From Syntrophobacterales bacterium (lineage in GTDB: Bacteria > Desulfobacterota > Syntrophobacteria > Syntrophobacterales > Thermodesulforhabdaceae), in NCBI GenBank assembly GCA_026417655.1, contig JAOACS010000008.1:1-64000 (forward strand): a DNA stretch of 64,000 bases. Reading direction: 5' to 3'. A program made the position numbers and the translations under genes. The notes below the pieces were generated by a model. That model did not search any database. It was not told the origin of the DNA and saw only the letters and a list, made by a program, of their open reading frames with translations. This document shows, piece after piece, positions 35,649 to 35,997 of the stretch (the stretch's first letter is position 1; each line of letters begins with the position of its first letter).

Positions 35649-35960
35649 CTAAAATGTGAGTATCTTATCCGATTCCTTTATTATCTCATACAGGTCATCC
35701 ATCCACCCAAGGGGACAATCCTTAGAGGGCACGAGCCCGTGCACCTTCATACACACACCTCAAAGGTAAAAATCTCCTTGGAAGGCCTGAACCTGCCCCT
35801 TTACGTCAAACTCTTCCGTTGAAATCTGTTCGTAGAGAACGCCCTTTCCAAGCATGAACACACTCACCTCATCACCCTTTTTAAGGGCAAGGTTTGCAAG
35901 TCTCATTGCGTTATAAACCGTTTCGGCATCGTTTGTAGAAATGATAATTAGAAGTTTCAT
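35649..35960 (-). CDS. DsrE-family selenoprotein (in-frame TGA = selenocysteine, UxxC motif)
   Basis: 103 residues if the TGA at 35760-35762 (codon 67) is read as selenocysteine. The first 66 residues (MKLLIIISTNDAETVYNAMR, FMLGKGV) are clearly DsrE-like. Beyond the TGA the same frame continues GVCMKVHGL, DCPLGWMDDLY and ends ESDKILTF at a TAG. In Cys-containing relatives this place reads CGTC or similar and the tail ends in DKVVTF, so U-G-V-C replaces C-x-x-C exactly. A SECIS-like hairpin starts 17 bases after the TGA. ATG is preceded by GGGAGG. DsrE-like proteins handle sulfur or persulfide; the GlcF/HdrD-like gene lies 53 bp downstream. Not a pseudogene, because the homology spans the stop. 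Confidence 0.86.
35725..35746 (-). promoter_or_regulatory. Bacterial SECIS element
   Basis: On the minus strand, just after the in-frame TGA, GGTGCACG-GGCT-CGTGCCC forms a hairpin: 5-bp upper stem GCACG/CGTGC, 4-base apical loop GGCU (35734-35737), an unpaired U below the upper stem and further G-C pairs. The loop begins 22 bases past the UGA. This parallels the E. coli fdhF SECIS, which has an unpaired U, a short stem and apical loop GGUC about 18 bases past its UGA. Confidence 0.75.
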
Positions 35961-35997
35961 AGGTTTGCATCCTCCCTTGTTTGAGTTCTCAAGATCA

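Follow-up and report, generated by a model that had tools for sequence, protein, structure and literature searches.

A predicted DsrE-family UxxC selenoprotein with a bacterial SECIS element in a Syntrophobacterales bacterium

The window analyzed here, i.e., the whole stretch of 64,000 nucleotides from a Syntrophobacterales bacterium, almost certainly contains a gene for a DsrE-family selenoprotein, in which an in-frame UGA followed by a SECIS element is predicted to be recoded as the selenocysteine (Sec) of a UxxC motif. Its minus-strand frame is interrupted by a single TGA, after which 36 sense codons follow (Table 1), and with TGA translated as Sec the product is MKLLIIISTNDAETVYNAMRLANLALKKGDEVSVFMLGKGVLYEQISTEEFDVKGQVQAFQGDFYL-U-GVCMKVHGLVPSKDCPLGWMDDLYEIIKESDKILTF. 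The read-through frame matched the Pfam DsrE model (PF02635) at 41.5 bits (cut-off 22.7) over residues 1-103; the gathering score was thus exceeded along the whole domain, and the homology crosses the TGA. A first-pass annotation of this DNA had proposed such a selenoprotein with a SECIS, including the DsrE-like continuation of 36 codons past the TGA, and its coordinates and frame were confirmed; the overall reading is now supported by conservation, the hairpin, the selenocysteine machinery and the modelled fold. It had also anticipated that standard gene callers would produce a truncated product, with which we agree: a gene caller halting at the TGA reports a meaningless 66-residue protein in place of the full read-through of 103 residues.

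Table 1. Features of the selenoprotein locus and its neighbor, with positions in the window.
Feature	Position	Strand	Evidence
DsrE-like selenoprotein gene, 103 aa, Sec67-Gly-Val-Cys70	35649..35960 (ATG 35960, TAG 35649)	minus	TGA=U translation, Pfam DsrE, TGA-bearing orthologues
In-frame TGA read as Sec, residue 67	35760..35762	minus	aligned with TGA in relatives and TGC/TGT in Cys homologues
Shine-Dalgarno-like AGGGAGG, 5' of the ATG	35970..35980 (approximate)	minus	read from sequence
Bacterial SECIS hairpin, 7 bp, bulged U 35743, loop GGCU 35734-35737	35727..35745	minus	folding, covariation, covariance model
GlcF/HdrD/LdhH-type Fe-S (CCG domain) protein, 414 aa	34351..35595	minus	domain matches; adjacency in this genome only

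A TGA is present at the same codon in approximately 30 genomes. Tblastn-type searches found TGA-bearing orthologues in genomes of the same genus, family, order and class, and also in named Desulfobacteraceae, Desulfobulbaceae and Nitrospirae MAGs; the alignment of this UGVC/UGTC clade (A2) comprises 29 distinct sequences, and seven further TGA-bearing sequences come from a second Sec clade, UG[ST]C, that is more remote. In all of the intact close relatives found in the Desulfobacterota the TGA aligned with the residue-67 codon. Homologues from Patescibacteria (L053-L056, with the motif CGTC) and from a haloarchaeal plasmid have Cys at this position, encoded by TGC or TGT, i.e., the TGA coincides with the first Cys of CGxC, as is the pattern for Sec decoding and just where the first-pass annotation had placed it. 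Purifying selection is equally strong on either side of the TGA, with pN/pS values of 0.176 before and 0.201 after it (20 ungapped full-length orthologues, 190 sequence pairs), and the sequence after the TGA is homologous among the relatives; had it been unrelated, this would have counted against the proposal. These data bear directly on the possibility that translation really ends at the TGA, with only the 66-residue product, or a decayed gene, to account for. TGA is indeed a stop in translation table 11, and one relative (L028 in G008) has a copy that appears decayed, as its frame changes and it contains additional stops, but we find this reading scarcely credible in view of the equal selection before and after the TGA, of the intact homologues, which never have TAA, TAG or a non-Cys sense codon there, and of the DsrE fold, which would lose its last helices and strand (two helices and one strand in the model described below). 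G039 (L033/L040) is the second relative with a frame-broken copy; the additional stops or frame shift in these two copies reflect decay or assembly errors.

The hairpin downstream of the TGA, GG-U(bulge)-GCACG-[GGCU]-CGUGC-CC (35745-35727), has a folding energy of -8.8 kcal/mol and a loop that begins 22 nt past the UGA. Its layout is similar to that of the E. coli fdhF element. Published rules for bacterial SECIS elements call for a loop of 3-9 nt with a G within the first two positions, a stem of 4-16 bp, a spacing of 16-37 nt and an MFE <= -7.5 (PMC13188914), and the 4-nt loop, the 7 bp plus one bulge, the spacing and the energy all fall within them, in keeping with the original description of a hairpin with an unpaired U and a GG-starting loop at the right distance. 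The relatives have other hairpin sequences with the same structure (e.g., AUCCCAC-GGUCUG-GUGGGAU): 88.7% of the cells in the hairpin alignment are paired, and two-sided changes occur in 16 cells vs. 4.4 expected. The covariation score was 0.296 vs. 0.162 expected and was reached in 0 of 500 shuffles, a test that overstates significance for related sequences; in a slide control, which preserves relatedness, the signal collapsed when the partner was moved by one to three columns, and the real score exceeded every slid control. A covariance model built from 28 other sequences, with that of the window excluded, found the minus-strand site at 27.7 bits (E 5e-7). The next-best match scored 8.1 bits within the window and 12.0 bits across the 2.3-Mb genome, making this the sole significant match genome-wide. 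A scan of the window with Rfam at gathering thresholds gave no match, and at that threshold Rfam does not cover the hairpin.

For isolated RNA from UGA+1 onward a different fold wins and the probability of the SECIS is at most 0.06, but with at least the first 8 nt after the UGA masked, the pair probability of the upper SECIS stem is 0.74-1.0. The SECIS hairpin therefore depends on ribosome masking, because the full local RNA prefers another fold, and the alternative free-RNA fold, which masking accounts for, does not count as a refutation.

An open frame and a hairpin are, by themselves, insufficient as proof of recoding. Among 1978 TGA triplets examined in the window, a rough background only, as it counts TGA in every frame and not just at ORF ends, 210 have at least 36 open codons after them, and 11 have such a frame plus a rule-conforming hairpin; hairpins of this kind are found at approximately 5% of random positions. 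Chance is excluded because homology and conservation continue across the TGA. When the window was screened for frames broken by a single TGA and without gene overlap, the DsrE-like locus and one adjacent in-frame gene pair were the only results, and as so little else is left, TGA is judged, within the window, to be a normal stop elsewhere. This argues against the TGA being read as an amino acid other than Sec (through TGA=W/G recoding or near-cognate read-through), as do the Cys at residue 67 in homologues and the presence of both the SECIS and the full Sec machinery, and we attach almost no probability to it.

That machinery consists of tRNA-Sec (contig C18, 75.9 bits, cut-off 47), SelB (C3, 403.6 bits, cut-off 242), SelA (C4, 627.9 bits, cut-off 268) and SelD (C11, 370 bits, cut-off 125). 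All four of selA, selB, selC and selD are thus in the genome, and the loss of selB or selC, which the first-pass annotation had regarded as fatal to its proposal, is not the case. SelB scored over the cut-off in three of the four same-family genomes, the fourth having partial matches on separate contigs. A strict-filter search of the sister species (G001) did not detect tRNA-Sec, a miss that carries little weight because the genome is ~95% complete; SelB in the same genome is full length. Two other loci were noted in the genome of the window. The selD gene (L066:754-2541, on C11) is itself interrupted by a TGA (AGUAAKIGPG), i.e., it is a selenoprotein gene, and comes after a YedF-type SirA-DsrE gene with CGTC. 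A second locus (L005, C1:18946-19033) scored just over the tRNA-Sec gathering score at 51.8 bits and is probably of the tRNA-Ser/Leu type.

AlphaFold modelled the full read-through protein as a complete alpha/beta fold (pLDDT 95.9, pTM 0.88), with Sec67 where a strand ends and a helix begins. The top matches of this model by Foldseek and VIA-align were all DsrE-family structures (3mc3, YchN 1jx7, 3pnx, DsrEFH 2hy5 and TusBCD 2d1p; Z 15.5-12), which places it within the DsrE fold. A sequence-profile search of solved structures produced a single match, E. coli YchN (1jx7), which is the closest solved structure by that measure as well as being among the top folds, and in which CKTC aligns with UGVC; YchN has Cys where the window protein has Sec. 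In DsrE and TusD, Cys78 carries a persulfide and has been proposed as the superfamily's active site (PMC3397948). By family analogy, Sec67 would occupy the place of this sulfur-carrying Cys and would be the nucleophile, and Cys70 would be the resolving residue.

The near-certainty expressed at the outset belongs to the selenoprotein assignment only, with the decoding that it entails. As the ribosome arrives at the UGA, the downstream mRNA would form the SECIS hairpin, which would become the dominant fold once the ribosome covers at least the first 8 nt past the UGA. SelB would bind the SECIS with GTP and Sec-tRNA(Sec), and the insertion of selenocysteine would lead to the 103-residue protein rather than the 66-residue fragment. 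For the substrate and reaction, we infer that the Sec67 selenolate could then attack a disulfide, a persulfide or a thiol-reactive metalloid substrate, and Cys70 would resolve the selenenylsulfide. By this chemistry, proposed by analogy and in our estimation about evenly poised between right and wrong, the protein may be a fast thiol/persulfide oxidoreductase or a sulfur carrier. No conserved neighbor pointing to a substrate was found in the window's own family.

Selenoproteins of this kind are already known, and the recoding mechanism is a standard one. DsrE-like (PF02635) UxxC selenoproteins were described in 2005 for the Sargasso Sea (PMC1088965) and a year later for Desulfovibrio vulgaris (2006, PMC1794560), and reviews of 2022 and 2026 list them (the tables of PMC13188914 among these); the 2026 review describes the functions of such selenoproteins as largely unknown. 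The remark in the first-pass annotation that they had appeared in metagenomic surveys agrees with this literature. The gene in the window is a well-supported further case, sharing with this family of Zhang and co-workers the Pfam family, the UxxC (Sec67-G-V-Cys70 against the published tables), a bacterial SECIS and hosts in the Deltaproteobacteria/Desulfobacterota, a likeness judged on the published family and motif; the D. vulgaris protein may fall in either the UGVC or the UG[ST]C clade. Neither of these clades is covered by a model in NCBIfam 20.0. What is added is an unannotated member, along with ~30 relatives, to a selenoprotein family with very few named members.

Other systems with the same domain differ in instructive ways. 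DsrE of DsrEFH and TusD of TusBCD have the same fold and, by family analogy, share the position of the sulfur-carrying Cys78, but the window gene stands alone without F/H or B/C partners and has a second Cys (CxxC-type) along with Sec. Membership of a DsrEFH/TusBCD complex was rejected, as three paralogous subunits were not found together and no second DsrE-family gene adjoins; the remaining DsrE matches of this genome lie elsewhere, on contigs 15 and 3. The YedF protein adjoining selD in the same genome has a DsrE domain, a CGTC motif (CGxC) and a selenium context in common with the window protein, but it is a two-domain, Cys-containing protein linked to selD.

As to biological role, the recurrent neighbors of the gene in other relatives are a hint from genomic context, and may point toward a function in metalloid or sulfur stress. 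TsoR (an ArsR/SmtB-type regulator, NF045707) lies 0.8-2.8 kb from the DsrE selenoprotein gene in six of the eight genomes with both. Several members, most of them in the UG[ST]C clade, have ArsM-like methyltransferase genes at their flanks. The loci with TsoR, ArsM-like or other SAM methyltransferase neighbors are L015, L024, L029, L030, L035, L038, L044 and L049. The protein may thus belong to a TsoR-controlled set of selenoproteins for metalloid or sulfur stress, a tentative reading that we place below even and that may fail for the window gene itself, in whose own family there was neither a TsoR over the cut-off nor any TsoR or ArsM-like neighbor. With similar reserve, it is possible that the two Sec clades of the Desulfobacterota, UGVC and UG[ST]C, belong to TsoR/ArsM-type selenoprotein clusters, handling thiol-reactive metalloids or persulfides and not sulfur oxidation, and that the window gene lost or left its cluster.

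The neighbor in the window itself is a GlcF/HdrD-like gene, and the first-pass annotation had thought the pairing notable. CCG-domain proteins handle disulfides, and with the two genes on the same strand and 53 nt apart, the selenoprotein could be imagined to act as a redox partner dedicated to the Fe-S protein. The relatives make this improbable. GlcF/HdrD-like orthologues are present in 20 of the 20 relatives examined, but adjoin the DsrE gene at none of their DsrE-bearing loci: in four same-family genomes (G001-G004) they are on contigs other than that of the DsrE gene, and in the one-contig genome G012 the two orthologues are 485 kb apart. As there is no linkage in relatives, the pairing is local, and a functional unit with the GlcF/HdrD-like protein was rejected for want of conserved adjacency.

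Several minor observations concern more distant or unusual copies. Phage records gave no match, and a phage origin was set aside. One genome (G041) has, besides a normal UGVC copy, a divergent DsrE-like copy (L038:1501-1815) with a TGA but without the resolving Cys (U-G-K-L), and upstream of it are TsoX-like and ArsM-like sequences in one frame. A search of a plasmid collection found haloarchaeal homologues only; the one examined has Cys. A Natronorubrum daqingense plasmid (L069) encodes a CGTC Cys homologue from the subfamily of the window protein that adjoins a SAM methyltransferase and is near YeeE/YedE and TauE-type transporters.
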